Source: Minwuiaceae bacterium (GTDB lineage Bacteria; Pseudomonadota; Alphaproteobacteria; Minwuiales; Minwuiaceae). From it: 64,000 bases of DNA. Below are positions 38,223 to 63,625 of this stretch, one piece after another (the stretch's first letter is position 1; each line of letters begins with the position of its first letter). The position numbers were made by a program, and so were the translations under genes. Where the stretch lies: contig JANQEE010000006.1 in the NCBI GenBank assembly GCA_028278525.1, forward strand, positions 1 through 64,000, written 5' to 3'. Under the pieces are notes generated by a model, which worked only from the letters and a program-made list of their open reading frames with translations, was not told where the DNA came from and ran no database searches.

Positions 38223-38252
38223 AAGGGCTTAGCTTCATCCTGCTAAGCCCTT
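38223..38252 (-). terminator. Ancestral terminator of tRNA-Ala(GGC)
   Basis: Read on the minus strand, an 11-bp perfect stem (AAGGGCTTAGC/GCTAAGCCCTT) is followed by TTTGTTTTTGG. It lies just beyond the orphan tRNA fragment, where the 3' end of the tRNA gene lay before the element integrated. It therefore ended the tRNA transcript in the uninterrupted chromosome. Confidence 0.85.
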
Positions 38253-38259
38253 GTCTGTT

Positions 38260-38312
38260 TTGGTGGAGCCAGGCGGAATCGAACCGCCGACCTCTTGAAT
38301 GCCATTCAAGCG
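38260..38312 (-). repeat. Left attachment site: orphan 3' fragment of tRNA-Ala
   Basis: These 53 bases equal 63549-63601 exactly. They contain the anticodon arm, variable loop, T arm, acceptor 3' strand and CCA of tRNA-Ala(GGC), without the 5' half. It is the host copy of the attachment core left after integration. The crossover probably lies within the anticodon stem-loop palindrome, as for many tRNA-targeting integrases. Confidence 0.95.
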
Positions 38313-38427
38313 GTCTGTTGCGAACCGTTGCACGGCAGACTACGCTGTGCCCGCAAATTCCGCAGATTTCGGCGTAATTGATGCGAACGGTTTACGCTCG
38401 TCTCTGCATCGAATACTCTAATAAGTG

Positions 38428-38473: not shown

Positions 38474-39700
38474 ATGGCGACAGTCAAGCTCACCAAGCGG
38501 GGCATCGATCAATTCGTCTACCACGGCACAACGGACGAGCAAGGTCGCGCGAGCCGGGACATTCGTTGGGATACCGAGACAAGGGGATTTGGTGTCCGCG
38601 TCTATCCGTTCAACGAAGACCGACAGCTTTTTCCCAAGGCTTTCGTACTCAGCTACCGTGTGAACGGACGCAAGCGGTTGATGACCATTGCCGATTACGG
38701 TGACCTCACGCTATCCGAGGCTCGGGATCGCGCGACGAAGTACCGCGTTCAGGCCAAAGACGGCATCGATCCCCTCGAGGAAAAGCGACAGGAGGCCCTC
38801 GGTTCGACGTTTGGCGACCTGTGCAAGCGATATCTCGATAAGCATGCCAAGGTTCACAAGAAGACCTGGAAAACCGATGACGGCAGGTTAGAACGCCACA
38901 TCCCGAGGGCCTGGAAGTCGCGGAAGGTTCAGGCCATCTCTCATGCCGACATTCAGGGCCTCCACCGGGAAATCGGTCGGACACGCCCGTACGAGGCCAA
39001 CAGAACACTGGACCTTCTGCGGGTTATGTTCAACGTCGCTCGACCTTGGTATCCAGTCCTGCAAAAGGCCGACAATCCAGCAGACAACATCAAGAAATTC
39101 GCTGAGAGCGAACGTAAGCGGTTCGCCAGGGCGGACGAGATGCCGCGGATCGCGAGAGCGATCGATGCCGAGTCGAACGTTTATGTTCGTGCCGCCCTTT
39201 GGCTGTACCTGCTTACCGGTGCGAGAAAGCAAGAATTGCTTCCGCGCAATCGATCAGAGATAGAGCGGTCCCCGGACAGAATCAGGTTGCCGGATACCAA
39301 ATCGGGCGAGGAGCAGTACATCCCGCTGTCCGCGCCAGCGATGGCGATCGTGCAGGCGATCCCAGAAGTCAAGGGTAACCCTTATCTCCTGCCAGGCGCC
39401 CGACAGGGGAAGCATCTCGTGAACATCGACAAGCCCTGGCGCCGGGTGCGCAAAGCCGCAGGGTGTGAAGACCTTACCTTGCACGATCTTCGGAGAAGCG
39501 TCGGCAGCTGGATGACAGATGATGGTGTCGACCTGAACCGGATCAAGAACGCTCTCCGACATGCCAACATCTCGACCACCATGCGATATGCACGACTAGG
39601 CGACGATGCGGCGCGCGAGCCGTTGGAGCGGCACGGCAAGCGGATTATTGAAGCCACTGGGCGAGTTCGTGTTGTCGAAAGGGATATTGCCGATGAGTGA
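38474..39700 (+). CDS. Tyrosine-type site-specific integrase (P4-like)
   Basis: The integrase inserts and excises the element at tRNA-Ala. The 408-residue protein has an N-terminal DUF4102-type arm-binding domain (residues 1-105, with YRVNGRKRLMTIADYGDLTLSEAR), a core-binding domain (110-210), and the catalytic domain. Catalytic residues are Arg251 (TGARKQELL), Lys276 (DTKSGEE), His337/Arg340 (HDLRRSVGSW), His363 (RHANISTTM) and nucleophile Tyr372 (RYARLG). All are present, so the enzyme looks active. Its stop overlaps the next gene (ATGAGTGA). Confidence 0.97.
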   Translation: MATVKLTKRGIDQFVYHGTTDEQGRASRDIRWDTETRGFGVRVYPFNEDRQLFPKAFVLSYRVNGRKRLMTIADYGDLTLSEARDRATKYRVQAKDGIDPLEEKRQEALGSTFGDLCKRYLDKHAKVHKKTWKTDDGRLERHIPRAWKSRKVQAISHADIQGLHREIGRTRPYEANRTLDLLRVMFNVARPWYPVLQKADNPADNIKKFAESERKRFARADEMPRIARAIDAESNVYVRAALWLYLLTGARKQELLPRNRSEIERSPDRIRLPDTKSGEEQYIPLSAPAMAIVQAIPEVKGNPYLLPGARQGKHLVNIDKPWRRVRKAAGCEDLTLHDLRRSVGSWMTDDGVDLNRIKNALRHANISTTMRYARLGDDAAREPLERHGKRIIEATGRVRVVERDIADE

Positions 39701-41725: not shown

Positions 41726-42490
41726 ATGGCGGGCCCGACACTGCTCATGAAATGGCGCTTGGTCCAGGCCATGAACGCGGACGATAGTCTGACCCGCGGA
41801 GCCATCAAAACCGCTTTGGCGTTACTCGACCACTGCAATAGCCGGACTGGGCTCTGCAACCCCTCACGCGCCACGATTGCGGCCGAGACGAATACCGATC
41901 TATCGACGGTCAAACGCTCGGTCCGCCAGCTGATCGAGGCAGGCTGGTTTCGGCAGTTGGCGAACCAAGGCGGGCGCGGCCACAGCACGAGGTACGCGCC
42001 AGTTTTCGACCGCCTCGACGCAGACACCGAAGAAAGGGGGGCGCCAGTGACCCCTATTAGCGAAGAAACGGGTTCAGCGGTGCCCCCCTTTATTCAAGAG
42101 AGGGGGTCATCCATGCCCATAAAGGGGGTCACCGGTGACCCAAAAAGGGGGGCGCCAGTGACCCCCGAATCCGGGAAGGAAACCGGGAAGAAACCGAAGG
42201 ACGCCAAATCGTACAGATTTGAGGGGCAGATCATCCGCCTCAACAAGTCCGATTTCGACACGTGGCAAGAGACCTTTCACTCCGTCACGGACCTTCGGGC
42301 CGAACTGATGTCGATCGACATTTGGCTCGTAAGTCATCCGAAGGCGCAGAAGGGATGGTTTTACCGTGTCTCGGCCATGTTGAACCGAAAACACCAGGCC
42401 AACCTGGCCAAGCAACGTGCCGATGCGGGAGCGGAATCATCGGGCGCAGTCCGAGCGTTCTCCGGCCCCGACGGAACACCGCTCGTATGA
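41726..42490 (+). CDS. Replication initiator-like protein (lambda O-type layout)
   Basis: This 254-residue protein has an N-terminal winged HTH (LTRGAIKTALALLDHCN; RATIAAETNTDLSTVKRSVR; LIEAGWFRQL, residues 20-80). A repetitive linker (about 100-150) is encoded by iteron-like DNA repeats, and a C-terminal domain (155-235, FYRVSAMLNRKHQANLAKQ) would contact a helicase. This layout is that of phage lambda O-like initiators, whose origin lies inside their own gene. The gene is followed directly by primase and helicase genes. Function is inferred; no enzymatic motif is expected. Confidence 0.7.
   Translation: MAGPTLLMKWRLVQAMNADDSLTRGAIKTALALLDHCNSRTGLCNPSRATIAAETNTDLSTVKRSVRQLIEAGWFRQLANQGGRGHSTRYAPVFDRLDADTEERGAPVTPISEETGSAVPPFIQERGSSMPIKGVTGDPKRGAPVTPESGKETGKKPKDAKSYRFEGQIIRLNKSDFDTWQETFHSVTDLRAELMSIDIWLVSHPKAQKGWFYRVSAMLNRKHQANLAKQRADAGAESSGAVRAFSGPDGTPLV
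42033..42166. repeat. Iteron-like repeats inside the initiator gene (probable origin)
   Basis: Five related copies of AAAGGGGG(G/T)C-n-CC-n-n-TG-ACCC occur. Copies at 42033-42055, 42121-42141 and 42144-42166 are direct; 42099-42121 is a shorter direct copy; 42075-42092 is inverted. The first and last share 22 or more bases. The copy at 42124-42141 contains a 16-bp perfect palindrome. The encoded residues are the dull repeated RGAPVTP linker, so selection seems to act on DNA. This is the arrangement of a phage replication origin. Confidence 0.7.
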
Positions 42491-42786
42491 GGGCCGTGAC
42501 CGAGCTCTTGGCCGATCACGGCATCTGGATACGCGACCGCACGCCCGGCAACCGCAAGACCATCTGCCCGAAGTGCAGCCAGCAGAGGCGGAAGAAAACC
42601 GAACCATGCTTGAGCGTTCTGATCGACGACAACGGCATCAAGTGGCGGTGCCATCATTGCCAGTGGAAGGGAGCGGCGTTCTATGACCAGCCAACTCACG
42701 AGCGAAGCGATCGACGGTCTGGCCGCCCGCGGCATAAGCGACGAGACCGCACTCCGGTACGGCGCTCGTACGTCGACAGATGGTAG
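42487..42786 (+). CDS. Primase zinc-binding domain protein
   Basis: This 99-residue protein has a zinc ribbon with Cys27-x2-Cys30 (CPKC) and Cys55-x2-Cys58 (CHHCQWKG). The layout is as in the N-terminal zinc-binding domain of T7-like primase-helicases, which reads the priming trinucleotide. After about residue 68 the sequence becomes a basic low-complexity tail that overlaps the next gene in another frame. The ATG overlaps the upstream stop (ATGA). Normally this domain is fused to the Toprim-helicase; here it is separate. Confidence 0.75.
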   Translation: MRAVTELLADHGIWIRDRTPGNRKTICPKCSQQRRKKTEPCLSVLIDDNGIKWRCHHCQWKGAAFYDQPTHERSDRRSGRPRHKRRDRTPVRRSYVDRW

Positions 42787-44164
42787 GGCGATCGAGTTCC
42801 CGTACCTTGAAACCGGTCGCGAAGTGAACTGCAAGAGCCGGGCGCCGGCAGACGTGTCCAAGGACAAGACACGCATGTGGCAGGTCGCAGGCGGGGAGCA
42901 GACGCTATGGAACGTCGACATCCTCGAAGACCCAGATCTTTACCGCGCCGAGGATCCGGTGCCATTGATCGTCACCGAAGGCGAGATCGACGCCTTGAGC
43001 TTCATCGAAGCGGGTTACGAGAGGGTTGCCAGCGTGCCGAACGGAGCGCCCAACGCGGTCCGTGACGGGCCGATCAACGATGAGCAGGGCGATTTCGTCT
43101 GGTGCCGCCGGCACTGGGAGCGCCTGAGACAGGTCCGCCAGATCATCCTGGCCACCGACGGCGACCACAACGGCCAGAACCTTGCCCAAGAGCTTGTGCG
43201 TCGATTCGGCCCGGCGCGGTGCCTGTTCGTGACCTACCCTGCCGGCTCCAAGGACGCCAACGAGGTTTTGGTCAAGCATGGCCGCGACGGTATTGCCGCG
43301 CTGGTGGCCGGCGCTCAGCCGTACCCGACCAAGGGCCTCTACACGCTCGATCAGCTGCCGCAGACGCCCGACAGACACCCCGTTTCGACCGGCTGGAATG
43401 TGCTGGACGAGGGGATACGCCCCTACCTTGGTGAGTTCATCGTGATGGTAGGGATACCCGGCTGCGGCAAGTCGACGTTCCTGACCGCGCTCATGAGCAA
43501 CCTGAGCCGAGAGCACGGTTGGAAGGTCTGCCTCGGTAGCCTGGAGAACGAGCCGCGCGACTATGAGACCGAGTTGAAGCGCTACTACCTGCGAAAGCAC
43601 CCGGTCTACGCCCTTCAGGACGAGCGCGCCGAGGCCGAGCAGTGGGTTCGACAGAACTTCCTTTTCGCAACTCAGAACGTGGAAACCGACGACGACGAAA
43701 TGGACTTGTCGGAGTTCCTCAACTGCGCCGAGGCCGCGGTCGTCCAGCATGGGGTAAAGCTGGTGGTCCTCGATCCGTTCAATCAACTGGAGAGCCGCCG
43801 GGGCTTCGACGAGACCGAGACTGAGCACACGGCGAAGAGCATCCGGGCAATGATGCGGTTCGCTCGGCGCCACCAGGTCTGCTTCATCTGCGTGGTCCAT
43901 CCAACCAAGGACGCCCGGAACCACAAGCCGGAGAACCTGGGGCTGTACGATTGCGCCGGCTCGGCGCATTGGGCCAACAAGCCGCAGGCCGGGCTGGTGC
44001 TGTGGCGCTTGCCGAACAGCAATGAGCTACACATCCGTGTCGCCAAGCTTCGCTACCGCGACACCGGCCGGCAGTGGCATCAGTGCTCGCTGTTCCTGGA
44101 GGAAAACTCCGGTCGCTACAGCGAAGTCGATATTGAGGCCGATGATATGTTCAACGCAGCGTAA
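42683..44164 (+). CDS. Toprim primase plus DnaB-type helicase (T7 gp4-like)
   Basis: This 493-residue protein has a Toprim primase domain (LIVTEGEIDAL at 96-105; ATDGDHNG at 157-164) and a RecA-like hexameric helicase domain (Walker A VGIPGCGKST at 256-265, Walker B VLDPFNQLE). It ends with the arginine-finger/H4 region CAGSAHWANKPQAGLVLW. It would prime and unwind at the element's origin. Translation starts inside the zinc-finger gene (104-base overlap) behind AAGGGAG. Confidence 0.88.
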   Translation: MTSQLTSEAIDGLAARGISDETALRYGARTSTDGRAIEFPYLETGREVNCKSRAPADVSKDKTRMWQVAGGEQTLWNVDILEDPDLYRAEDPVPLIVTEGEIDALSFIEAGYERVASVPNGAPNAVRDGPINDEQGDFVWCRRHWERLRQVRQIILATDGDHNGQNLAQELVRRFGPARCLFVTYPAGSKDANEVLVKHGRDGIAALVAGAQPYPTKGLYTLDQLPQTPDRHPVSTGWNVLDEGIRPYLGEFIVMVGIPGCGKSTFLTALMSNLSREHGWKVCLGSLENEPRDYETELKRYYLRKHPVYALQDERAEAEQWVRQNFLFATQNVETDDDEMDLSEFLNCAEAAVVQHGVKLVVLDPFNQLESRRGFDETETEHTAKSIRAMMRFARRHQVCFICVVHPTKDARNHKPENLGLYDCAGSAHWANKPQAGLVLWRLPNSNELHIRVAKLRYRDTGRQWHQCSLFLEENSGRYSEVDIEADDMFNAA

Positions 44165-47404: not shown

Positions 47405-48670
47405 TCACGGGAACTCCCGGTCGTGCCGACCGCCCACGTAGCAGTAGTAATGGCCGTGGAACCCGATCTCCTTTAGCAAGATGCGGGTGACGAGTTCTCG
47501 CGCCAAGATGATGCTTGGCCAGATGTCTACACCATCAGGACCGGTGCCTTTGTGAACAATCGTGTTTCTAAGTTCGATCAGGCCTCGAATGACCGCGTCG
47601 TCAAAATCCCGCTTTGGGATCTTGTAATGAGGAAAGAGGGCTTGGATTTTCATAGATAATGTCTTCTGATTCAATTGAGATACTTTGGCCTTTAGGATCT
47701 CTTTGGGGCTCTCAGCCAGCGTGCTGTCAGCTTCGACAACGCGCTCGATCTCTTGTCTCAAAGGTATGAATTCCTTCTTCGCGACGATGGTGCCGCGGCG
47801 TTCCGGCAACTCGCTATCGATGATCGATTCGAGCGCTGTCATAGCTGACAGGAACCGTATTTCGTCAAAGGTCGTGTCGATCTGCATCCAGCCAAGCGCA
47901 GTCCACAGCTTGTCCCGAAGCGGACCTTTATTCTCGTATCGTTCCGCCAACGCACGGATGAAAGGCCCATGGTTCAAGTGCGGCAGAACCGCCATCTCCG
48001 GCTTGAAACCCTCGCCTTCATAAAATGTCGCTTCCGCTGTTTGGCCGTGCACATAGTCCAACCGAGGCGTCTGTAATCTCCCACCATGTGCAAAGGCGAG
48101 CCCTTGGTGCATGTGGGCGAGGAACTCGTCTGCATCCTCATGCCAATTGGGACCGGGGTCTTGGGTCGGAGCCACAAGTGCAACTGAGCCTGACATGTCA
48201 TCATGCGATACGGATTGTGCCTCACCATGGACTAAAAGCTTGCCGAGAGTGGTATCGACGGGTGGATTTCGGAACGACTTAAATGAACGAAACCATAACC
48301 TTAGTGTTGGTCTTTCGACCGCCTCACCGAGGCTGCCCGTTATAGTGGCGACCCGAGCGGTCACGCGTATCTGGTAGCCATTTTCGTTTATCCGGGTCGC
48401 CGTCGTCGAAACGCTATCTGACGTGAAACTTTTGCCGTCAGCGCCTTGCCCCGTCAGTTTGAATTCCTCGACGTTCGTGCCAGGATTTCCCCTTTGGCGT
48501 AGCACCTTCATGTACGTTGCTCTGTCAACAGGGTCGACATCGAAAACCAGACGGCAATCCGATCCCGCAGAAAGTCGAAACGAAATCGGAGCAGTCTCCC
48601 CTTCTATCGAGATCTCGCCAACAAATTCGGTCTCTTCGAGAATCGGTTCGTTTGTGTCTGACGGGCCCAT
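47405..48670 (-). CDS. HEPN-domain protein, ApeA-like (putative anti-phage)
   Basis: This 421-residue protein has a beta-rich N-terminal half (about 1-180) followed by a helical C-terminal domain ending with ELRNTIVHKGTGPDG. Arg368-x4-His373 is the R-x4-H RNase motif of HEPN domains. A two-part layout of this kind is seen in ApeA-type single-gene anti-phage proteins, in which a sensor region controls an RNA-cleaving HEPN domain. The start MGPSDTNEPILEETEF was chosen over a longer basic extension. It is relatively AT-rich compared with host genes. Assignment to ApeA itself is tentative. Confidence 0.6.
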   Translation of the reverse strand: MGPSDTNEPILEETEFVGEISIEGETAPISFRLSAGSDCRLVFDVDPVDRATYMKVLRQRGNPGTNVEEFKLTGQGADGKSFTSDSVSTTATRINENGYQIRVTARVATITGSLGEAVERPTLRLWFRSFKSFRNPPVDTTLGKLLVHGEAQSVSHDDMSGSVALVAPTQDPGPNWHEDADEFLAHMHQGLAFAHGGRLQTPRLDYVHGQTAEATFYEGEGFKPEMAVLPHLNHGPFIRALAERYENKGPLRDKLWTALGWMQIDTTFDEIRFLSAMTALESIIDSELPERRGTIVAKKEFIPLRQEIERVVEADSTLAESPKEILKAKVSQLNQKTLSMKIQALFPHYKIPKRDFDDAVIRGLIELRNTIVHKGTGPDGVDIWPSIILARELVTRILLKEIGFHGHYYCYVGGRHDREFP

Positions 48671-48822
48671 GGGTGGTCTTTTCGATTTGCGGCGGGTTTT
48701 TGATCGAGTGATGAAGCTAACGCATAGAAACACAGCCGGCGGCCGGATATCTACGACCATCGTACGGTTCAGCTATTTGGGCAGTTGTGGGCGCCGAAGA
48801 GCCACTATGAACGGGTCCGTCG

Positions 48823-49287
48823 CTACTGCCGCGCCCACTCCGGCCCATCATCGTAACCCGACCATCCGATGCTGCGCCTCAGTTCTAGCGTGCAGTCCGA
48901 AAGGATGACATCCGTCTCCTGCGACCACCACCGGAAGGCCCGGCCCTCGGCACTGTCCGCGTACATGAGATCCTGGCGCTGGAGGGCAGCTTGCGCGCCG
49001 TCCTCTACCCAACGGTCGACCTCGGCTTGCCTGACCTGCGCGTCACCGGCGATGATCGAGTTCGGATCGAGCGGGTCCATGCCGGCAAAGGCCCAGTCGC
49101 CGGACGCATCGGAATAGCCGGCCTGCAACGACGCGATGCGCTCGCACAGGTCGGTGTAGCGGTCACGCTGGGTTAGGCTGTCCATGAGCAGCCAGCCAAC
49201 AAGAAGGGCCAGTGCCACGGTCAGGTGCGGGGTGAACCGCCAGCGGGTGAAGGCGAGCCATGCGCGTGTTAGTGTCCAGCCCGTCAT
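48823..49287 (-). CDS. Single-pass membrane protein of unknown function
   Basis: This 154-residue protein has an N-terminal membrane helix (LTVALALLVGWLLMDSL, about residues 21-37) followed by a helical, acidic periplasmic or cytosolic domain with two cysteines (DLCERIASLQ; SDCTLELRR). The start MTGWTLTRAW overlaps the opposite-strand gene start by two bases; an ATG at 49311 is the alternative. Function is unknown. Confidence 0.6.
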   Translation of the reverse strand: MTGWTLTRAWLAFTRWRFTPHLTVALALLVGWLLMDSLTQRDRYTDLCERIASLQAGYSDASGDWAFAGMDPLDPNSIIAGDAQVRQAEVDRWVEDGAQAALQRQDLMYADSAEGRAFRWWSQETDVILSDCTLELRRSIGWSGYDDGPEWARQ

Positions 49288-49555
49288 GACGGATTTAAGT
49301 GCCTTCTTCATCACACTGTTTGGCTTGGCCTTCTCCGTGGCGCTCACCATAGGAGGGGGAGTGATTCTCTACGACACTGTTATCGAGATCATAAACACTT
49401 GGCATGCTTGGGAGGGTGCCGATTGGACGATGGCCTTGGTGTTCTTCCCGATCGTCGCAGCAATGGCAGCGATATTCTTCTTTGGCGGCCTGTGGTCGAT
49501 CTTTATCAAAAAACACTGGCTTAAACCGATGAGCGACTGGCGCGACGGCCGGTAG
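49286..49555 (+). CDS. Small two-helix membrane protein
   Basis: This 89-residue protein reads MTDLSAFFITLFGLAFSVAL. It has helices at about 5-30 and 50-75 (ALVFFPIVAAMAAIFFFGGL) and a basic tail. Its ATG is in the same CATG as the divergent gene's start, so the promoter must lie inside the other gene. Small membrane proteins of this kind are common in prophages. No function is assigned. Confidence 0.55.
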   Translation: MTDLSAFFITLFGLAFSVALTIGGGVILYDTVIEIINTWHAWEGADWTMALVFFPIVAAMAAIFFFGGLWSIFIKKHWLKPMSDWRDGR

Positions 49556-52055: not shown

Positions 52056-53300
52056 TTAGTGTTCACATAAGGGAATGCTGAACCCCGCGGGCAATTTTGT
52101 AGATCTGTCCCCGCAAGCAATGTCCAGCTGCGGCTGGGTCAAACCAAATGTAGAAAGCAGGTTCGCATCTTCCAACTGGGCTTCATTCAGGATGGCACCT
52201 TTTAGTCGCGCTCCTCGTAAATTAGCGCCATAAAGCAATGCCCCGCTAAGATTCGCATCCTCCAATTGTGCCTTCAAAAAGTTTGCTCCTCTGAGCCGTG
52301 TCCCTATGAGGCGCGCAGACTTTAATTGCGCCGACATAAGATTGGCGTGCCTAAGCTGTGCTCCGACAAGTTGGGCGCCATCAAGAAATGCCCCAGTCAT
52401 TTCAGTGCCAACCATCTGCGCTCCAGCTAAATATGCTCCCTCCATGTGCGCTTCGCCGAGGTTGGCGCCCTGGAGACGAGCCCTTTGGAAGTTCGCGTTT
52501 TCCATCTTTGCCCGGAAGAGGTCGGCACCTTTCAAGTGTGCATCTTTGAGGATTGTGCCTCTTAGTTCTGATCTGGCGAGGTCAGCACCGTCTAGACGCG
52601 CCCCTGTCAAATCGGCGCCGCTGAGCCTGGCGCCGCGCAGGTCGGCGGATCGAAGATCCTGGCCAGTGAGGTTGCTGCGTTCAAGATCAGCGAGCTGGAG
52701 TTGGAGTGGTCGACGGAACTCGCTTAAACGGATTTCATGGTGGATCGTCGTGATGATGGCAAAAACCACAAGCAGCGGTGCGAAAACGCGGTAGGACCAG
52801 TGCCATGGAAATCGAAGGAAAAGCAGAACAGCCGTTGCAATCAGGGTAAGGAACAGCAGCACAACGCCCCATTGCCAGAACGCCATTGCTTTGTAGGTGA
52901 AGATGGCCAAAACCAGTGGGACCAACGGGTAAAGGACAAAGAACGAAAATACGCGTAGGAGCGGATGGCGCAACGGAGAGGCGACAGGCACGCGGCGACT
53001 GATTGCTGTTGGAGACCGGCGTACCAAACGATCAAGCCGACGCCAATGAGAAACATAGATCTCAAGATAGGCGCGGACGGCAATCAACACGATCGGGCCA
53101 AGAATCAACAAAGCCTTGAACGACGCCCCACCGGCAAATGGGATATTAATCGTGGTCGTAGCACTCAGAAGATAGGCGTCCGGATACCCAAGTGTCAGCG
53201 AACCGCCCAAGCCGACGCCAATAAGGGTGAGCATGAGCCGATTGACAGTCTTGCCCGTCTCGGCCTGCGCTTCGAGAAGTCGCTCCAATCTCTGGTTCAC
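52056..53300 (-). CDS. Membrane pentapeptide-repeat protein
   Basis: This 414-residue protein has an N-terminal helix, four transmembrane segments (about residues 20-45, 62-80, 118-160, 165-185) and about 35 pentapeptide repeats (A(D/N)LxX; residues about 205-390), for example ADLRGARLSGADLTGARLDG. The repeats form a right-handed quadrilateral beta helix. GTG start behind GAGGGACT. It lies downstream of the KAP NTPase gene. Pentapeptide and KAP proteins have both been linked to phage or plasmid conflict; the function here is unknown. Confidence 0.88.
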   Translation of the reverse strand: MNQRLERLLEAQAETGKTVNRLMLTLIGVGLGGSLTLGYPDAYLLSATTTINIPFAGGASFKALLILGPIVLIAVRAYLEIYVSHWRRLDRLVRRSPTAISRRVPVASPLRHPLLRVFSFFVLYPLVPLVLAIFTYKAMAFWQWGVVLLFLTLIATAVLLFLRFPWHWSYRVFAPLLVVFAIITTIHHEIRLSEFRRPLQLQLADLERSNLTGQDLRSADLRGARLSGADLTGARLDGADLARSELRGTILKDAHLKGADLFRAKMENANFQRARLQGANLGEAHMEGAYLAGAQMVGTEMTGAFLDGAQLVGAQLRHANLMSAQLKSARLIGTRLRGANFLKAQLEDANLSGALLYGANLRGARLKGAILNEAQLEDANLLSTFGLTQPQLDIACGDRSTKLPAGFSIPLCEH

Positions 53301-53409
53301 AGTCCCTCTTACTATATTACGTAAATGCGAACAGCTATTCGCACTTCGTTCTATGGGGTGTCACCCTTGAATTCGAATCAATACAATCAGCGCCTGGCCG
53401 CAGGATCGC

Positions 53410-55665
53410 CTAACTCACAGACGGCTCGCCGACTTTCGCAGAGGATACATCCGGTACCGGTTCTTCTTCGCGAGTGACTACGCTGGAAGAGATCTTCTTA
53501 AATCGCTTCACCAAGTTCGAATCCGGCGGCCATGCAGTATCCTTCGAACGGCTTACGTGCGCAGCCTTCGCCTTCTTGAACGCCTCCCGATCGTCCTTGT
53601 CTTGAAACTCAGCTTCGTTAAAGGGAATGTTCGATGATCCTGGCAGGCAGCGGTCTATTGAGGCAATGGCAACAAGGGAGGACTCGTCGATCGTATCGGC
53701 CTCAGGCTCTTCGCTCTCGCCGCGCAAGAGCATAGCGAGGAGACGCAATCGATTGATGAAGCGTTTTAACGCTCGTGGCGTACTTAGGCGCGTAGCCATG
53801 AGCGGATACCAGTCCGTCAGCGCATTGACGAATTCATCGGAGTCGTCGAGTACATCTCCGGCGGTGCGCAGCGCCTCTCTCTGACTACGGACTGCGCGTA
53901 CTAACAGTGCAAAGAGCGTGAGGGCGACCAAACCGCTCACGCTCCCAACGACGCTCAGTTGGTCGACTGGCGCCGACGTCGCTACAACGGTCGGGCTATC
54001 TTGGCTTGGTCCCTTCAAGATGAGACCGAAGCCGTAGGCCAAACCGCCCGCCGCAAAAACACCAAGGAGTGTTGGAAAATAGATCTTCCACGAAGCCAAG
54101 CGCACCCGAAATGGTCTGTGGTCAGAGGCGACGGTCGGTTGTTTCTGCTCTTCGCTCAGTATGGCCAAGGCCCCAGCTTCGGGCAGATCTGGCACCTGGA
54201 CCTCGACATTGACCAGCTTTTCAAGATAGTTCTCAGCGAATGCGCGACGCTGAGCCTTACGCGATTGCAAACTCTTCGCCGGTCCATCTGCGGAGACAAA
54301 AGCCGCCACGTCTTTGAAGGAGAACGCCACGCTATCGATCACGCGTTGGCGCTCGAGTCCCATAACCACAACGCATTCGCCCGATGACACAAGAAAGTTG
54401 ATGGCTTCCAATACCTCGAGGACACGCTCTGGCCTACAGCGGTCCAGATCGTCGACCAGTATGACGGGGGTAAGCGGGGCAAGCGCCTGGGCCACGTCGC
54501 GAAATTCGCCGCCAAACCGATGGCGGAAGCTCAACCGATCACGAAACTGAGCGACACGGGTGAGGCGGCCGACTGACGCTGTCAGACGCGCCGGGTCTAG
54601 CAACGTGTTGCGAAGGCGCACGCGCATCGTGAGCAAGAAGGCGAGAAGCGCGCCCACACCGGGCAATGCGGCAACCGCTTCGATAGTCTCGGGCTTGTCT
54701 TTGTTGTCAGAGACTAGGGCCATCATCTTATCGAATTCAGGTCCAGCGCCCGACGCTATGAGCCCAAGCTGAAGTGCGAGCAAACCAAGGATCACCACAA
54801 AGATCCCAGGCTTGCGTTTCGCTCGAATCCAAAACAGCCGTAAGCGGAAGACCAGTCCTGCGACGGTCCACCATCCCGGAAACGCAGCAACCCGCAACGT
54901 CTCAAGCAGCGACGCTAGAAAGTGCTCTTCCGTCTGGTGGTGCCACGCATTGAACCAAACGGGCCTGTAGCCATGCTTCTCCAAATCCGCCTTGAGGAGG
55001 CTCATAATCGAGCTCTTGCCTGTACCCCACGCACCTACAATCGCGAGGGTCAGCGGAGTTTGTGTCTGTTCATTTCGGAGAAAACCGGAAATGCCGCGAG
55101 CGAGGTTGCCATAACCAAGCGGATCCGGATCGCCTGCGCGCAGTGGGCGATCCGAGACTAGGCGGTCCGCGATGGAACGGCGGCGTCCGCTGTGCTCGTC
55201 TGCTTCATCAGCCTCGGGACTACGTTCCGCCGAGTCTGAGGGGACTTCCTTTCTTGGTAGAGGTTTTCTGAAGTGATACCGGCTCGATCGCTCGAGAAGG
55301 ACTTGGTCCATTTTTTGAAACACTGGAACGTACCTAAGGCCCAACCATATCCCCAGCGTCGTTGCCGCTATGAAAGTTTGCGTATTAAAGAAGATATCGA
55401 GGTCCAACGTGCTGGCCAGATCCGGCCAAATGGCACTATTTGAAACGTACAGAAAAATCCAAAATGCCACATTGCTGATTTGGTACAAGCTTATCAAAAT
55501 CCACTTGAAATCTTGATCTGGCAAGCTGGCCCACAGTGAAGGCTCCGTGTTGTCATGTACGAAAGCACGTTCTCGCCGCACGGACACGCTGTAGACGACA
55601 AATAAGAAAATCCCGGCGATGAACCAGTCCAGATATACGCGGATGTCTACGCTGACAGTGGTCAT
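53410..55665 (-). CDS. KAP-family P-loop NTPase
   Basis: This 751-residue protein has two or three N-terminal membrane segments (10-28, 56-75, 95-112). The KAP NTPase domain starts at GYGNLARGISGFLR, with Walker A GAWGTGKSS (211-219), WFNAWHHQTEEHFLASL, a membrane-inserted region (260-345), and Walker B ILVDDLDRCRPERVLEVLEA. Two more membrane helices lie near 530-590 before an acidic C-terminus. Membrane insertion between Walker A and B is typical of the KAP family, which includes PifA, the F-plasmid protein that excludes phage T7. Confidence 0.9.
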   Translation of the reverse strand: MTTVSVDIRVYLDWFIAGIFLFVVYSVSVRRERAFVHDNTEPSLWASLPDQDFKWILISLYQISNVAFWIFLYVSNSAIWPDLASTLDLDIFFNTQTFIAATTLGIWLGLRYVPVFQKMDQVLLERSSRYHFRKPLPRKEVPSDSAERSPEADEADEHSGRRRSIADRLVSDRPLRAGDPDPLGYGNLARGISGFLRNEQTQTPLTLAIVGAWGTGKSSIMSLLKADLEKHGYRPVWFNAWHHQTEEHFLASLLETLRVAAFPGWWTVAGLVFRLRLFWIRAKRKPGIFVVILGLLALQLGLIASGAGPEFDKMMALVSDNKDKPETIEAVAALPGVGALLAFLLTMRVRLRNTLLDPARLTASVGRLTRVAQFRDRLSFRHRFGGEFRDVAQALAPLTPVILVDDLDRCRPERVLEVLEAINFLVSSGECVVVMGLERQRVIDSVAFSFKDVAAFVSADGPAKSLQSRKAQRRAFAENYLEKLVNVEVQVPDLPEAGALAILSEEQKQPTVASDHRPFRVRLASWKIYFPTLLGVFAAGGLAYGFGLILKGPSQDSPTVVATSAPVDQLSVVGSVSGLVALTLFALLVRAVRSQREALRTAGDVLDDSDEFVNALTDWYPLMATRLSTPRALKRFINRLRLLAMLLRGESEEPEADTIDESSLVAIASIDRCLPGSSNIPFNEAEFQDKDDREAFKKAKAAHVSRSKDTAWPPDSNLVKRFKKISSSVVTREEEPVPDVSSAKVGEPSVS

Positions 55666-56210: not shown

Positions 56211-56330
56211 ATGCCCATCAGTCGAACAAATTTCGATGACCTTTCCGCGGCCGATATCATCGAGTTCATCGATGCTGGCACGCCGGAACAGCAACACAGC
56301 CTGACGAATCTGCGCGACATCATATACTAA
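56211..56330 (+). CDS. Very short (39-residue) frame, likely truncated gene
   Basis: MPISRTNFDDLSAADIIEFI followed by a Gly/Thr-rich end and IIY stop. The N-terminal pattern looks like the start of longer phage-borne ATP-binding proteins (I recall similar ISR-x-NFDDL-x-x-ADL starts), cut off by a stop. AAGGTAAGG lies just upstream. It sits directly outside the right inverted repeat, so it may be a gene broken by insertion of the cargo. Its last bases overlap the end of the opposite gene. Confidence 0.4.
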   Translation: MPISRTNFDDLSAADIIEFIDAGTPEQQHSLTNLRDIIY

Positions 56331-57304
56331 TCGCCATTGAGCCATGGCGCGAATTCGAACATCCCGTATTCGCTATTGGCGGGATTGATGGCCCAAACGC
56401 CACGAAACATAAATTCTGTCGTGTGCACTCTATCGAACCAATCTCGATAGACCGCACAACCGGAGACCCAAAGGAACGCTTCATGGTTACGTATGGCCTC
56501 AACGTTGTGCGACTGGATTTGCACCAAGCCGCCTCTGTTGGTGATAATCATCACATCGCCTTGAGCAAGTTCGCTGACCGAATAGTCGGATACAGCATTT
56601 GTTGTCCTAGCCTTCGGCGGATGTGGTTCATCACCCAACGAACAGTAAATTGAACGTTCAACGACAAAGGCGTGGCTCTCTCCGATGTTTTCGATTTGCA
56701 CCAAGACGCCCACCAACAGTCCGTCTATATCGTCATGATGCATCCATTGCCGTGCTGTTGTTTGGCTACCAATGCTAGGCGATCGCATCCTGGCACTCTT
56801 GACGAGTAACTTCGCCGCTTGCATGTCCATGGCAATTTGGGCATGCACCTGTGCAGCGTCAGCCGCCTGAAGAGCTGCACTATTTGCCTCACGCGTTGCA
56901 GCCAACGTTCTCTTAAGTAGCACAACAGCGACAATGCTGATCACCGTGGCGATGGCGCTAAAAAGCGCCATGATCCATTGAGCCGCTCCGTCGCTGGGAG
57001 TAATCCATGACGGCAATGCGATGTCATGGCGACCTGATGCCATGCTGTCGTCGATATTGCGATCCCTATCATCGCTTTCGCGGTCAGGTTCGGAGTCATT
57101 GATCGCGGCCGGCACGGGTCGCGTGTCTCGCGTGGATCCCTCATCGTTGACCGGCTGCGGGGGCTGGGCATTTGGCTCCGTTTCGATTTGTTGATTATCT
57201 GACGGCTGGGCTTCGGGTTCAGCAACGCCCTGCCCGAACGCTGGCGTGGCGATTGCTAGAATTACCCAAAGCGCGATGGTGTGCGGCAGAGTACGACCAT
57301 GCAT
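56327..57304 (-). CDS. Membrane-anchored protein of unknown function
   Basis: This 325-residue protein has a signal sequence (TIALWVILAIATPAFG, cut after FGQG), an acidic Pro/Gln/Asp-rich linker (residues 25-95), one transmembrane helix (IMALFSAIATVISIVAVVLL, about 110-130), a coiled coil (TREANSAALQAADAAQVHAQ), and a beta-rich cytoplasmic domain. Similar single-span proteins occur in prophages, role unknown. It is not part of the coupled virion-type block upstream. Confidence 0.65.
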   Translation of the reverse strand: MHGRTLPHTIALWVILAIATPAFGQGVAEPEAQPSDNQQIETEPNAQPPQPVNDEGSTRDTRPVPAAINDSEPDRESDDRDRNIDDSMASGRHDIALPSWITPSDGAAQWIMALFSAIATVISIVAVVLLKRTLAATREANSAALQAADAAQVHAQIAMDMQAAKLLVKSARMRSPSIGSQTTARQWMHHDDIDGLLVGVLVQIENIGESHAFVVERSIYCSLGDEPHPPKARTTNAVSDYSVSELAQGDVMIITNRGGLVQIQSHNVEAIRNHEAFLWVSGCAVYRDWFDRVHTTEFMFRGVWAINPANSEYGMFEFAPWLNGD

Positions 57305-57523: not shown

Positions 57524-60500
57524 TCACCGCGCAGGCCGCGCTTGGCCAGATTGCCCAGCCAGGTCCTCGACCCGCTGCCGCACAGACTCCCGGAGCACGT
57601 CGGAGTTTTGCGCCAGGAACGCGGCACGCGCCACCGTCCGCGCCGCGCTGTTCGTTCGCCGGATCAGTTCTCGCTTCAGCCCGTCGCCCAAGCCGAGATA
57701 GGCGGGGCTCGCCACCAACTGATCAAGCGCACGCTTGGCGGCGCGGCCCGTCGCCACTTGCAGCTGGTCGAATTGCTGCGGCGTCAGTTCGACCCCGCGC
57801 AGCTTCCGGTCCTGCCGCTTGATTTCGATACGGAGCCTGACAATCTCGTCGGCGATCGGATCGTTGCGGCGGAAGCTCGAATAGATCGGTGAGATCAGGT
57901 CGGGGCCGAGGCCGCCGGACAGAACGATGGGCTCGCCCCACACATTGCGACGCGGCGGCAGATCTTTCGAGTAGCCCGGGATGCGGGCTCGGATCGCATC
58001 GAGTGCGGAACGGGTATCGCGCAAGACCGGGTCGCCTTCGAACGACGTGCCCGGCACGCCCTCGCGTGCGACCGCGGCGACGCCGGCAGGCACCAACGAC
58101 CCGGCGAGCCGCCGGATATAGCGCTCGCCGTAGCGGTCGGGGTCGTTGATCGTCTGGATCAGGTCCGAGAGGCCGGAAAGCCAGGTTTTGCTCACGAGGT
58201 TCTGTGCGACCGATCCGACGATCATGGCGGCGACGCGGTCGGCGTCGGGCCTCGACATCTCACCCGCGACTTCGGCGAAGTCGGCCGCGACGCCGAGCAG
58301 CAGGCCGAGCGGTTCGAGCCTGCCATAGCTGAAATAGCGGTCGCCGATCCTGACGCTGTAGGGCTGCCAGCCCGTCTCGCGAAGGGCGCCCCGCAGTTCG
58401 GGGTCGGACGGCCCGCCGCCGGTCAACAGCCCTTCCGCGGCGAGCCCGGCCGCGGCCAGCGCTACTGAGGTGCCGAGCGCCATGCGCGCTGTCGCTTCGT
58501 CGCGCGCTATCTGGCCGTTCCTGCCCTTCAGATCGTCGCGTACCCGCTGCATCAGCACGCCGAACGGCGAGCGCTCGGCTGCGAAAGTAATGATGTTGGC
58601 CGGGGTGCGGACGAACGGCACCACGACGCGCCCGCCCGGGACACGGTTGAGCGTCGACATGACGTTCTGGCCGATCCGACCGAGCGGGTTGGTGAACGTC
58701 ATCCGCTCGGCGAACGCCTGGGCCTGCGTCGCCAGGTCCTCGGGCGGGTCGCGCATGATCGACGAGATGAGCTCCGCCCGCTTCGCTCCCTTGAGCCGTT
58801 TTTGGGACGCCCGCCGGTAGGCAAGCGCATAGAGTGCCGAGCGCCGGTTGGCCGCTTTGAAGAATTCGTCTTCGGCCATCAGGAAGCGTCCGGGCAGGCG
58901 AGCTATCTGGCCCTTGACGCCGCTGATCGCCTGATGTCGGCGCGCTTCGACCTTGAGGGCGGGGTCGGATGGTTGCTCGGTCAGGAGCGTACGGCCGGCG
59001 AGGAACGCGCCGTCCTTGGCGCCCTGCAACAGGCCGAACGCCCGCATCGCGGCTTCGCCGGCATAGACCTTTTCGCCCGCTCTGAACGCGCCGATGCCGG
59101 AAGCGATCAGCGTTTCGGGAACAGTCCACATCGCCGTCAACGTGTTCGAGAGGATGTTGACCGCATGCGTCTTCGGCGACGACAGGAGGCCGTTGATCCA
59201 GATCTCGAACAGTTTGTCGCGCAGCTTAGCCCTGCCTTCATCGCGGACGAACGTGTTGAGCGTGCTGGGTTCGTCAAGGGTCGCGATTGAGCCCGCCAAG
59301 TCTTCGATCCGGTCCCGTCCGCCGGCCGACTGGATCAGTTTGTCGATGGCTCGCTGCCGCGCCGACTCCGTCCTGGCTGTGATCTGGAACGAGCGCAGCG
59401 CCCGTCCGGCTTCCGCCGTGATCCCGGTAACCTGCTCCTGGATCGCCTGATGTCGGCGCAGCGCCCGCATGAACTCCACCTGTTGTGCGTCGCTCCCGCG
59501 CTGCGCCTGTCTTGCGATCCGAACCAAGTTCTCGGCCGACTCGGCGAGCATCGTCCGGGCCGCCAACGCCTGCTCTGCGTTGAACGCCTGGCCGCGCTGC
59601 CGCTTCATCAGCCGGTCGAAGTTGAGCCCGAGGTCTTCGGCCAGCTGCTGCGTTTCGGCTACGCTCTGTACGCCGCGCCGCGCCTTTTCGATGCCGACGC
59701 CTTCCGCGGCGGCCACGAGCGCGGCCTTGATGTCTTCGGTGCTTTCAAGGCGATCCAAGGCGATGTTGCCGGCACGCTCGGCGTTGCTGCGTCGGCCGCT
59801 GGCGGCCAACACATCGCGGCCTGACGGTGACAGGATCTCGCCTTGCAGCGGTGCGGTTGCTTCCAGACCGGCTTGGTCGATCGGCGACAGCCCATCGAAC
59901 TGCCGGGCAATCTCCTGGTCGATCGCCTGGCGCGCCTGACCGTCCGTCAGGCCACCGATATCCACCCCAAGCTCGTCGGCTTCGCGCGCGATGTCGCGAT
60001 CCCCTTGCAACCCGTCGAGCAGATCGCGGTCATCCTGGGTGAACCGCCGCCCGGGTCCACCTGCCTCGGTCTCCCGCAATGCTTCAAGGAAATCGTCGAT
60101 CGAGGGGCGCTCGGCGAAGTCGTCGAAGAACCCCGACTGCCAGGCCAGCAGCGCCGCGTCGTCCAGGTTGAGGCCGCGTTCGTCGCTGATGATCGGACCG
60201 AGGAAGTTTTCGCCACGGACGAACGTCAGGTCGCGTGGTTGGTTGGTCAGGCCGAGGGAGCGCAACTCTCCTCGAAAATCCTTGAGCCCGCCCTGTGTTC
60301 GAAGCCAGGTAATCAGGTCCATCGGGCCGCGCCATTTCGTCCGACTCCCGTTCGACGTGATCACATCGGCGACAGGCAATTGCGTCGTGCCCGTCTCCGC
60401 CGCCTTCCGCTTGGCCACCGCCGCCGGGTTCTCTGCGAAGCGACCGGAGGCGGTCGGCCCCGGGGGTGGTGGATCGAGTGGCGGCGACGGCTTGACCGGT

Positions 60501-61681
60501 TCGACCGCTTCACCGCTCCGACGCGCGGGCGCCGGCAGCACGTGACCGGAATCGCGGGCGAGCGGCGCATCCGCTATCACTGGCGGCGCAGCGCGGTCGG
60601 TCGGCGCGGTCGGGGCAATGGCTGATAGGCTGGGCGTAGCTGACAGATCGGGCGGCACAACAGCTGCGTCCCCTGTTTGCGCGTTCGTTGCGGATTGGCG
60701 TCCCGCAGTCGCAGTCGCGATCTCGACTGGACCGGTAGCAATTTGCCCGATTGCCTCGGCGGCGATCTGCGGCGCGTTGAGTTCCTGCCCGGCGGACACC
60801 TGCCCCAACGCCTCGCCGCCGGCACCGAGCGCCGCTTGCGCGCCGACTTCGGACACAGCGCCAGCTACTGCCTGCGTGGCTCGCCCACCGCCGACGCTGC
60901 CCGCAGTCCGTGCAACCGGACCGAAGATCCGCCCGCCTACGCCAAACGACAGCATGTCCACCGCCGCGATGGGGATGCCTTTGCGAAGCGCGATCTCCCG
61001 CGCCCGGTTGAGCAGATCGGGATTGCGGAAGGCATCTGCGATTTGCCGTTCGTCGGTAAGGTCGACGCCCTGTTCGGCGAAAGTCTGCAACACCTCAGCG
61101 CCGGCTTCTAGGCCGAGAGAGCCGAGGCCGGCCGCCCCGGCCCCGGCCAGCGGTCCGCCGGCGGCCGTCGCCCCTGCCGAGAGTCCGAGGACCGGTGCGA
61201 ATTGGCCGAAGCTTTCGCCCATGATCGTCGCTGTGATTTCGAGAGGCGCATTGGCGAACGCCTTGGCCGCGCCCGTTCCCTCGGAAGCGAAGAAGGCGCG
61301 CACGTTCTCAGATGGCGGGTTTTCCAGGATCTTGCGCTGCTGCTCCGCAATGATCGGCGCGACCTGATCAGGATCGATGCCGAGCGCTCCGGCCGACGCG
61401 GCGAGCGAGGCGATACCCTGCTGTCCTCCCCGGCGCAGCACGTCTGCCGCTGCATCGTCGGTTGAGCGCAGCGCTGGTCCGGCTTGGCGCGACAGACCGA
61501 ACAGCGTCACCGGTTCGCTTATCGGTCGCGGACCGTCTGGGGCCAGATCATCAAACAGGCCAACCGGCGCACCACCGGTCGCCGATTGAGCTTCACTGAT
61601 CAGATCACTGAATAAGCCCGTTCCAGGCGACGCCTGCGATCCCTGGCGTGCTTCTGCAATGAGATCATCGAAAGCACCCAT
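57524..61681 (-). CDS. Phage-type large polyvalent / internal virion protein (LPD38-like)
   Basis: This 1385-residue protein starts with three short repeats (GAFDDLIAEARQ, GLFSDLISEAQS, GLFDDLAPDG). It then has Ala/Gly-rich membrane-like helices (150-330), a Pro-rich linker, an alpha-helical middle rich in Arg/Glu (about 640-800), and a C-terminal domain with SPKTHAVNILSNTLTAMW, RTPANIITFAAERSPFG and YFSYGRLEPLGLLLGVAADF. This resembles the large polyvalent proteins of podovirus-like phages and conjugative elements, which are carried in the virion and enter the host. Its TAATG junction with the upstream gene shows coupling. No peptidase or nuclease motif was identified. Confidence 0.7.
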   Translation of the reverse strand: MGAFDDLIAEARQGSQASPGTGLFSDLISEAQSATGGAPVGLFDDLAPDGPRPISEPVTLFGLSRQAGPALRSTDDAAADVLRRGGQQGIASLAASAGALGIDPDQVAPIIAEQQRKILENPPSENVRAFFASEGTGAAKAFANAPLEITATIMGESFGQFAPVLGLSAGATAAGGPLAGAGAAGLGSLGLEAGAEVLQTFAEQGVDLTDERQIADAFRNPDLLNRAREIALRKGIPIAAVDMLSFGVGGRIFGPVARTAGSVGGGRATQAVAGAVSEVGAQAALGAGGEALGQVSAGQELNAPQIAAEAIGQIATGPVEIATATAGRQSATNAQTGDAAVVPPDLSATPSLSAIAPTAPTDRAAPPVIADAPLARDSGHVLPAPARRSGEAVEPVKPSPPLDPPPPGPTASGRFAENPAAVAKRKAAETGTTQLPVADVITSNGSRTKWRGPMDLITWLRTQGGLKDFRGELRSLGLTNQPRDLTFVRGENFLGPIISDERGLNLDDAALLAWQSGFFDDFAERPSIDDFLEALRETEAGGPGRRFTQDDRDLLDGLQGDRDIAREADELGVDIGGLTDGQARQAIDQEIARQFDGLSPIDQAGLEATAPLQGEILSPSGRDVLAASGRRSNAERAGNIALDRLESTEDIKAALVAAAEGVGIEKARRGVQSVAETQQLAEDLGLNFDRLMKRQRGQAFNAEQALAARTMLAESAENLVRIARQAQRGSDAQQVEFMRALRRHQAIQEQVTGITAEAGRALRSFQITARTESARQRAIDKLIQSAGGRDRIEDLAGSIATLDEPSTLNTFVRDEGRAKLRDKLFEIWINGLLSSPKTHAVNILSNTLTAMWTVPETLIASGIGAFRAGEKVYAGEAAMRAFGLLQGAKDGAFLAGRTLLTEQPSDPALKVEARRHQAISGVKGQIARLPGRFLMAEDEFFKAANRRSALYALAYRRASQKRLKGAKRAELISSIMRDPPEDLATQAQAFAERMTFTNPLGRIGQNVMSTLNRVPGGRVVVPFVRTPANIITFAAERSPFGVLMQRVRDDLKGRNGQIARDEATARMALGTSVALAAAGLAAEGLLTGGGPSDPELRGALRETGWQPYSVRIGDRYFSYGRLEPLGLLLGVAADFAEVAGEMSRPDADRVAAMIVGSVAQNLVSKTWLSGLSDLIQTINDPDRYGERYIRRLAGSLVPAGVAAVAREGVPGTSFEGDPVLRDTRSALDAIRARIPGYSKDLPPRRNVWGEPIVLSGGLGPDLISPIYSSFRRNDPIADEIVRLRIEIKRQDRKLRGVELTPQQFDQLQVATGRAAKRALDQLVASPAYLGLGDGLKRELIRRTNSAARTVARAAFLAQNSDVLRESVRQRVEDLAGQSGQARPAR

Positions 61682-63512: not shown

Positions 63513-63540
63513 GGGGCCTAGCCGTTTTCAGCTAAGCCCC
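63513..63540 (-). terminator. Element-borne terminator for the restored tRNA-Ala
   Basis: A 10-bp stem with one mismatch (63513-63522 with 63531-63540) is followed on the minus strand by TATTTCGTT. It lies just beyond the tRNA 3' end and shares the GCTTAGC/GCTAAGCC core with the ancestral terminator at 38223-38252. The element therefore replaces the terminator it displaced. Confidence 0.75.
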
Positions 63541-63548
63541 TGATTTTA

Positions 63549-63625
<77 letters not shown>

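Follow-up and report, generated by a model that had tools for sequence, protein, structure and literature searches.

Two adjacent genes, encoding a KAP P-loop NTPase of 751 amino acids (53410-55665, minus strand) and a membrane-anchored pentapeptide-repeat protein of 414 amino acids (52056-53300, minus strand), are found in a stretch of 64,000 nucleotides from Minwuiaceae bacterium (Alphaproteobacteria; assembly GCA_028278525.1, contig JANQEE010000006.1, positions 1 to 64,000), referred to here as the window. An initial annotation had described them as two open reading frames (ORFs) in tandem on the minus strand, encoding membrane proteins on a mobile element. Both ORFs were found at these positions and on this strand, and this description is borne out by hydropathy analysis, an integrase gene and repeats of a tRNA-Ala gene; the two genes are cargo of the element. 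The pair is tentatively interpreted here as a membrane exclusion or sensing module, with an anti-phage role as a hypothesis.

The KAP gene lies upstream of the pentapeptide gene, and the two are separated by a spacer of 109 base pairs (53301-53409, minus strand) with a GC content of 0.48. Directly upstream of the pentapeptide gene the spacer contains a dyad (53326-53343), found in a scan of which the total number of matches did not exceed that in shuffled sequences. The dyad is possibly an operator, a promoter region or a weak terminator. Judged from the sequence alone, co-transcription of the two genes is plausible.

The KAP NTPase

The 751 amino acid protein matches PF07693 with an E value of 2.3e-22 (80.1 bits, the cut-off being 20). 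It has one Walker A motif, GAWGTGKSS (residues 211-219), and a Walker B motif, VDDLDRC, of the D-D-x-D-R type found in the KAP superfamily. The Walker motifs are among the columns that are invariant across a KAP alignment of 45 rows, the window protein included. Hydropathy analysis revealed six peaks. The protein has an N-terminal membrane segment of approximately three helices and two pairs of hydrophobic helices inserted in the NTPase domain. Inserted peaks at about residues 287-305 and 327-345 lie between Walker A and Walker B, as is characteristic of the superfamily. The first 160 residues matched only themselves among the ORFs of all loci compared.

An AlphaFold model based on the 45-row alignment has a mean predicted local distance difference test score (pLDDT) of 74, with most of the core above 90. 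RdrA of the RADAR system was the only match below 0.001 in a Foldseek search of the PDB. A structural aligner also gave RdrA as the best solved match of the core, with Z scores of 13-16 over 217-241 residues at 14-16% identity, while the next family scored 11.3. A sequence search of solved structures with the KAP profile yielded no match, and the absence of PifA, QatA and Tmn structures among the structural matches listed excludes nothing. The modelled core has an RdrA-like AAA+ fold. This fold match suggests a ring-forming AAA+ KAP protein; a shared fold by itself shows no function. The solved RdrA forms rings with its partner RdrB, and RdrA is not known to have membrane helices. No RdrB is encoded at the window locus.

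A group of KAP NTPases with Asp-box propellers

Among 84,980 species genomes scanned, 108 relatives of the window KAP were found, of which the best 80 (L008-L087) were compared. Most of these 80 are approximately 1000-1570 amino acids long, against 751 for the window KAP. All seven relatives scanned with Pfam matched an N-terminal PSII_BNR/YCF48 (Asp-box) propeller, two of them weakly. At least two Asp-box motifs precede the KAP core in 59 of the 72 ORFs of relatives counted, a set that includes one contig twice (L025/L126) as well as near-duplicates. In many of them these motifs lie between two membrane helices, a position from which the propeller is probably periplasmic. The window KAP shares the inserted hydrophobic helices with these proteins; it differs from them in its own N-terminal membrane segment, its location on a mobile element and the lack of a propeller, no propeller model having been matched in its Pfam scan.

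In a phylogenetic tree of the KAP core (98 rows) the window KAP falls with the propeller KAPs, with which it shares up to 58% identity over the columns of the tree. A branch of 2.08 (support 90/99) separates this group from PifA, QatA, an EVE-domain KAP of class genome G009 (see below) and a further 25 KAPs of the class. The tree does not assign the window KAP an exact position within the propeller group, and support is weak (44/63) for the fork that divides this group at the root as drawn. The bootstrap of the tree had not settled, and several rows, among which PifA and the EVE-domain KAP, have long branches. The tree excludes four loci removed manually as duplicates or partial, two identical rows and those 23 of 123 sequences in which no core was defined by motifs. 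By its core sequence, the window KAP is assigned to the Asp-box-propeller KAP group, as a member without the propeller. The group is widespread, occurring in several phyla in housekeeping surroundings. No description of a YCF48-KAP family was found in the literature searched (mostly openly readable papers), and the group is apparently undescribed there. A phage collection contained no relative of the window KAP; two KAP relatives were found on viral contigs, neither with a pentapeptide gene in its locus.

The membrane-anchored pentapeptide protein

The 414 amino acid protein matches PF00805 with an E value of 4.8e-48. It contains 35 in-register pentapeptides (residues 204-383), in agreement with the approximately 35 repeats first proposed; when the protein was shuffled 2000 times, no shuffle had more than 10. 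Pentapeptide-repeat proteins are defined by eight or more consecutive A(D/N)LXX repeats (PMC8145042), and with 35 repeats in register the window protein is one of them. The membrane helices all lie within the first ~195 residues. Four helices had been proposed and four are seen at hydropathy cut-offs of 1.4 and 1.6, while a cut-off of 1.2 and the AlphaFold model both give five. The repeat array is modelled as a right-handed beta-helix with pLDDT above 90, followed by a short C-terminal cap, and the membrane part is of low confidence.

Pentapeptide proteins that mimic DNA, of the Qnr/MfpA type, have a strongly acidic repeat helix. The repeat helix of the window protein is near neutral, with 22 K/R and 20 D/E over residues 204-383 (net charge +2), and DNA mimicry, which the initial annotation had considered, is unlikely. 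A genome-wide scan with this protein yielded no relative. Its membrane domain had no match on viral contigs, and no match to the membrane domains was found on plasmids.

Occurrence of the gene pair

The conservation of the pair was analyzed in 385 genomes of the host's class, in which the flanks of some KAP genes end at contig ends. Of these genomes, 51 have KAP genes (PF07693, E value not above 1e-8), at 63 places from which 61 genes were counted. A profile search of the flanks found a pentapeptide neighbour beside two of the 61, one in the window and one in G009. The general co-occurrence by which the first proposal was to stand or fall is not supported, either here or among the close relatives (0 of 80), and these counts speak against a widely conserved pair. 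A candidate pentapeptide neighbour of a KAP gene in locus L014 proved to be a GGDEF protein.

The G009 pair was detected by way of the membrane domain of the pentapeptide protein, independently of its neighbour. A single-sequence search of the 385 genomes with this domain matched four, that of the window included, among which G009 (E value 1.6e-5); a weak match in G335 (4.3e-4) has no pentapeptide ORF. In G009 the gene of a 666 amino acid membrane-pentapeptide protein stops 8 nucleotides short of where a KAP ORF of 1362 codons, which matches PF07693 (3e-20) and carries an EVE domain, is likely to begin. The membrane domains of the two pentapeptide proteins share 32% identity over 125 columns. 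The two KAP proteins show short matches only and belong to different clades of the tree, and the gene order in G009 is reversed, the pentapeptide gene being upstream of the KAP gene. A shared descent of the two pairs is therefore unlikely. The G009 operon (L123, 8609-14592) is followed on the other strand by an S24/helix-turn-helix repressor gene. No relative of the G009 KAP was found on viral contigs. A homologous membrane-pentapeptide protein thus stands beside a KAP in a second genome, and the arrangement is rare overall.

A three-row profile found the membrane domain in 10 of the 385 class genomes, in three of 398 genomes of the phylum and in one of nine of the order, the window being counted each time. 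Eight of the ten class matches are pentapeptide proteins (G000, which is the genome of the window, G009, G230, G282, G340, G024, G208 and G293); the matches in G067 and G082, and in G415 from the phylum search, are not. Three class genomes, G000, G009 and G293, harbour both kinds of gene, adjacent in the first two and on different contigs in G293. No KAP gene was found at an E value of at most 1e-8 in G230, G282, G340, G024 and G208. By a rough reckoning, adjacency in either G009 or G293 would arise by chance in about 1 in 1000 cases. The G009 arrangement is an independent pairing and hints at a real link between the two proteins; one such event is not proof of it.

Pentapeptide proteins of loci L165, L166, L167, L168, L169 and L147 also have a homologous membrane domain, at a central position in the chain; pentapeptides were detected before this domain in some and after it in others, and no KAP lies in the flanks examined.

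Comparison with known systems

KAP NTPases and pentapeptide repeats have been placed in one association web of functions directed against invaders, in the excerpt available not as this pair (PMC10853773), and have separately been named as parts of such functions (PMC8195603). No description of the KAP and pentapeptide pair as a system was found in the literature searched. The best PADLOC match of the window KAP is QatA of QatABCD (3.1e-21), which has the KAP core in common with it. QatA belongs to a different clade, has no hydropathy peaks and works with the partners QatB, QatC and QatD; among the neighbouring ORFs scanned in the window, QatA itself was the only Qat family matched. PifA of plasmid F, which excludes T7 and had been put forward as an analogue, is likewise a KAP protein (PADLOC PifA model 1.5e-18). 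The analogy is weak: in the tree PifA does not group with the window KAP, standing in a separate clade on a long end branch of its own, it has no hydropathy peak, and no pentapeptide gene is annotated in the stretch of F examined. Tmn is an anti-phage KAP NTPase with two transmembrane segments, encoded by a single gene, that inhibits T2, P1 and other phages (PMC11846954). The likeness to the window KAP is one of description alone, and the available part of that source describes no pentapeptide partner.

For the pentapeptide protein the closest counterpart in layout is HglK of Nostoc/Anabaena, whose four membrane helices precede an array of about 36 pentapeptides (PMC8145042). HglK, compared by description, is larger (727 amino acids, with repeats from residue 501) and has a role at the cell septum; the likeness is one of layout, with four N-terminal membrane helices and a long C-terminal array. 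KAP and pentapeptide genes also occur together on a mobile element of Lactococcus garvieae, pGL5, with one small gene between them (PMC3387028). The pGL5 genes differ from those of the window in being divergent and about 0.74 kb apart, the pentapeptide protein has one membrane helix, and the KAP is so distant (a branch of 10) that its placement in the tree is meaningless.

The element and its other genes

The pair lies within a prophage-derived integrated element of approximately 25.4 kb (38225-63605), recognized by its tRNA-Ala repeats, integrase and PHROGs matches. The tRNA-Ala gene (63550-63625), the sole Rfam match being a tRNA, has its 3' end within a direct repeat of 92 nucleotides (38225-38316 and 63514-63605), of which the copies are 86% alike overall, with a nearly unbroken stretch over the tRNA part. 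A tyrosine integrase gene (38474-39700) adjoins the left copy, which confirms the earlier assignment to a mobile element. It is accompanied by genes for an O-like replication initiator (41726-42490; phrog_391, 4.7e-10), a primase/helicase (42683-44164; phrog_239, 7.8e-76) and a 1385 amino acid relative of podovirus internal virion protein D (57524-61681; phrog_6651, 2.6e-40), to which its phage relatives are 24-32% identical among the matches listed. No capsid, portal or terminase gene was found among the 18 element ORFs scanned with PHROGs, and the element is therefore probably a prophage remnant or prophage-derived. In a profile search, 80 viral contigs with a relative of the virion protein contained neither gene of the pair.

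GC content at third codon positions (GC3) divides these genes. It is 0.58-0.63 for the pair, 0.60 for a gene encoding an Apea-like HEPN protein (47405-48760, minus strand) and 0.57-0.63 when an ORF of 325 amino acids (56327-57304, minus strand) is included; it is 0.68-0.81 for the integrase, initiator, primase, virion protein and a 338 amino acid gene. The four genes of low GC3 thus look like later cargo. The cargo zone is mixed, since an orphan ORF at 48823-49350 has a GC3 of 0.80. The HEPN protein was recognized by its C-terminal domain (Pfam 4.8e-7, with a weak Cas13-ApeA match in PADLOC, 0.005) and is, by its sequence, possibly another defence cargo gene product. The 325 amino acid protein is encoded upstream of the KAP gene on the same strand; besides a signal-like N-terminus it has one more hydrophobic helix, and no family was found for it in scans with Pfam, PADLOC or PHROGs. 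It is possibly the product of a third cargo gene, located in the membrane or secreted.

Three copies of a 22-nucleotide repeat are located at 42033-42165, inside the O-like initiator gene. The origin iterons of lambda lie inside O, and by analogy the repeats may be the replication origin of the element.

Function of the pair

That the two proteins work together in some way, in defence or otherwise, has a chance just better than even. In the reading proposed here, the two genes, which are cargo of the prophage-derived element in tRNA-Ala, would form one module in the inner membrane. The KAP protein would form an ATP-driven ring embedded in the membrane, comparable to the ring of RdrA in solution. 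As its scaffold or sensor in the membrane, the pentapeptide protein would perform in trans what the propeller of the relatives may do in cis. An incoming phage, or damage to the envelope, would be sensed and cause the complex to alter the membrane so that the infection fails, and the host of the element would be protected by superinfection exclusion or abortive infection. Four observations support this reading: the pairing recurs in G009 with a KAP of another clade; the GC3 of the pair is below that of the integrase, replication and virion-type genes and like that of the HEPN gene; defence proteins are known from other KAP clades (QatA, Tmn); and the fold of the core is best matched by RdrA of RADAR.

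Several observations weigh against it. No pentapeptide neighbour was found in the flanks examined of 59 of the 61 class KAP genes, nor a pentapeptide gene in the loci of the best 80 of the 108 relatives, and G009 provided the only further pairing. The membrane-pentapeptide genes of G230, G282, G340, G024, G208, G293 and G485 have no KAP in the flanks examined, and the spacer dyad could mean that the two genes are under separate control. The 112 immediate neighbours scanned of propeller KAPs (genes of at least 700 amino acids, below 120 amino acids or touching the ends of a locus being excluded) resemble housekeeping genes. Seven PADLOC families matched one neighbour each at 1e-10, some surely the same protein, so that at most 7 of the 112 are concerned; no sign of a defence-island setting was seen among them, no control set having been scanned. 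Defence neighbours are found in other KAP clades, with QatA in its operon and plasmid relatives of the EVE-domain KAP beside SIR2, DarT-like or integrase genes. As the window KAP belongs to a group set amid housekeeping genes, its link with defence rests on these other clades.

A defence module is judged slightly less probable than two unrelated neighbouring cargo genes, a KAP and an HglK-like membrane pentapeptide protein that each act alone in the variable region of the element. The latter explanation, itself short of an even chance, would account for the rarity of the pairing, the many membrane-pentapeptide relatives without a KAP neighbour, the dyad-containing spacer and a cargo zone in which a HEPN gene and orphan ORFs are mixed. 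It does not readily explain why in G009 an unrelated KAP is paired at a distance of 8 nucleotides.

It is unlikely, to a lesser extent conceivable than either of these, that the pair is an envelope sensor or stress module rather than a defence system. As a membrane ATPase that reads the periplasm, the KAP would then retain the role of its chromosomal propeller relatives, and the element would gain from the fitness of its host. The Asp-box motifs found N-terminally in most of the relatives' ORFs, in many between membrane helices, are in line with such a role, as are their housekeeping neighbours with PADLOC families matched by a single member each. HglK, with the layout of the partner, acts on septa and glycolipid placement (PMC8145042). 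The location of the window KAP on a mobile element, its missing propeller and its new N-terminus speak against it. A degenerate remnant, a propeller KAP left without its sensor and its function in a prophage undergoing decay, would fit the missing propeller and the lack of capsid, portal and terminase genes, and is very improbable given two long, intact ORFs, invariant Walker motifs and a regular repeat array.

A more specific form of the defence-module reading, a split membrane receptor-ATPase, is speculative and rather improbable. KAPs of different clades would repeatedly have exchanged a built-in Asp-box propeller for a membrane-anchored pentapeptide beta-helix, or have joined an EVE domain with one; the helix would sense infection or envelope damage and trigger the KAP ring, and the pair would travel on mobile elements as a defence module that has not been described before.

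If the link between the two proteins is not real, the locus is an ordinary cargo neighbourhood. If it is, it would name a propeller-bearing group of KAP NTPases, provide a biochemical partner for many orphan HglK-like membrane pentapeptide proteins and explain how membrane KAP NTPases choose their targets.

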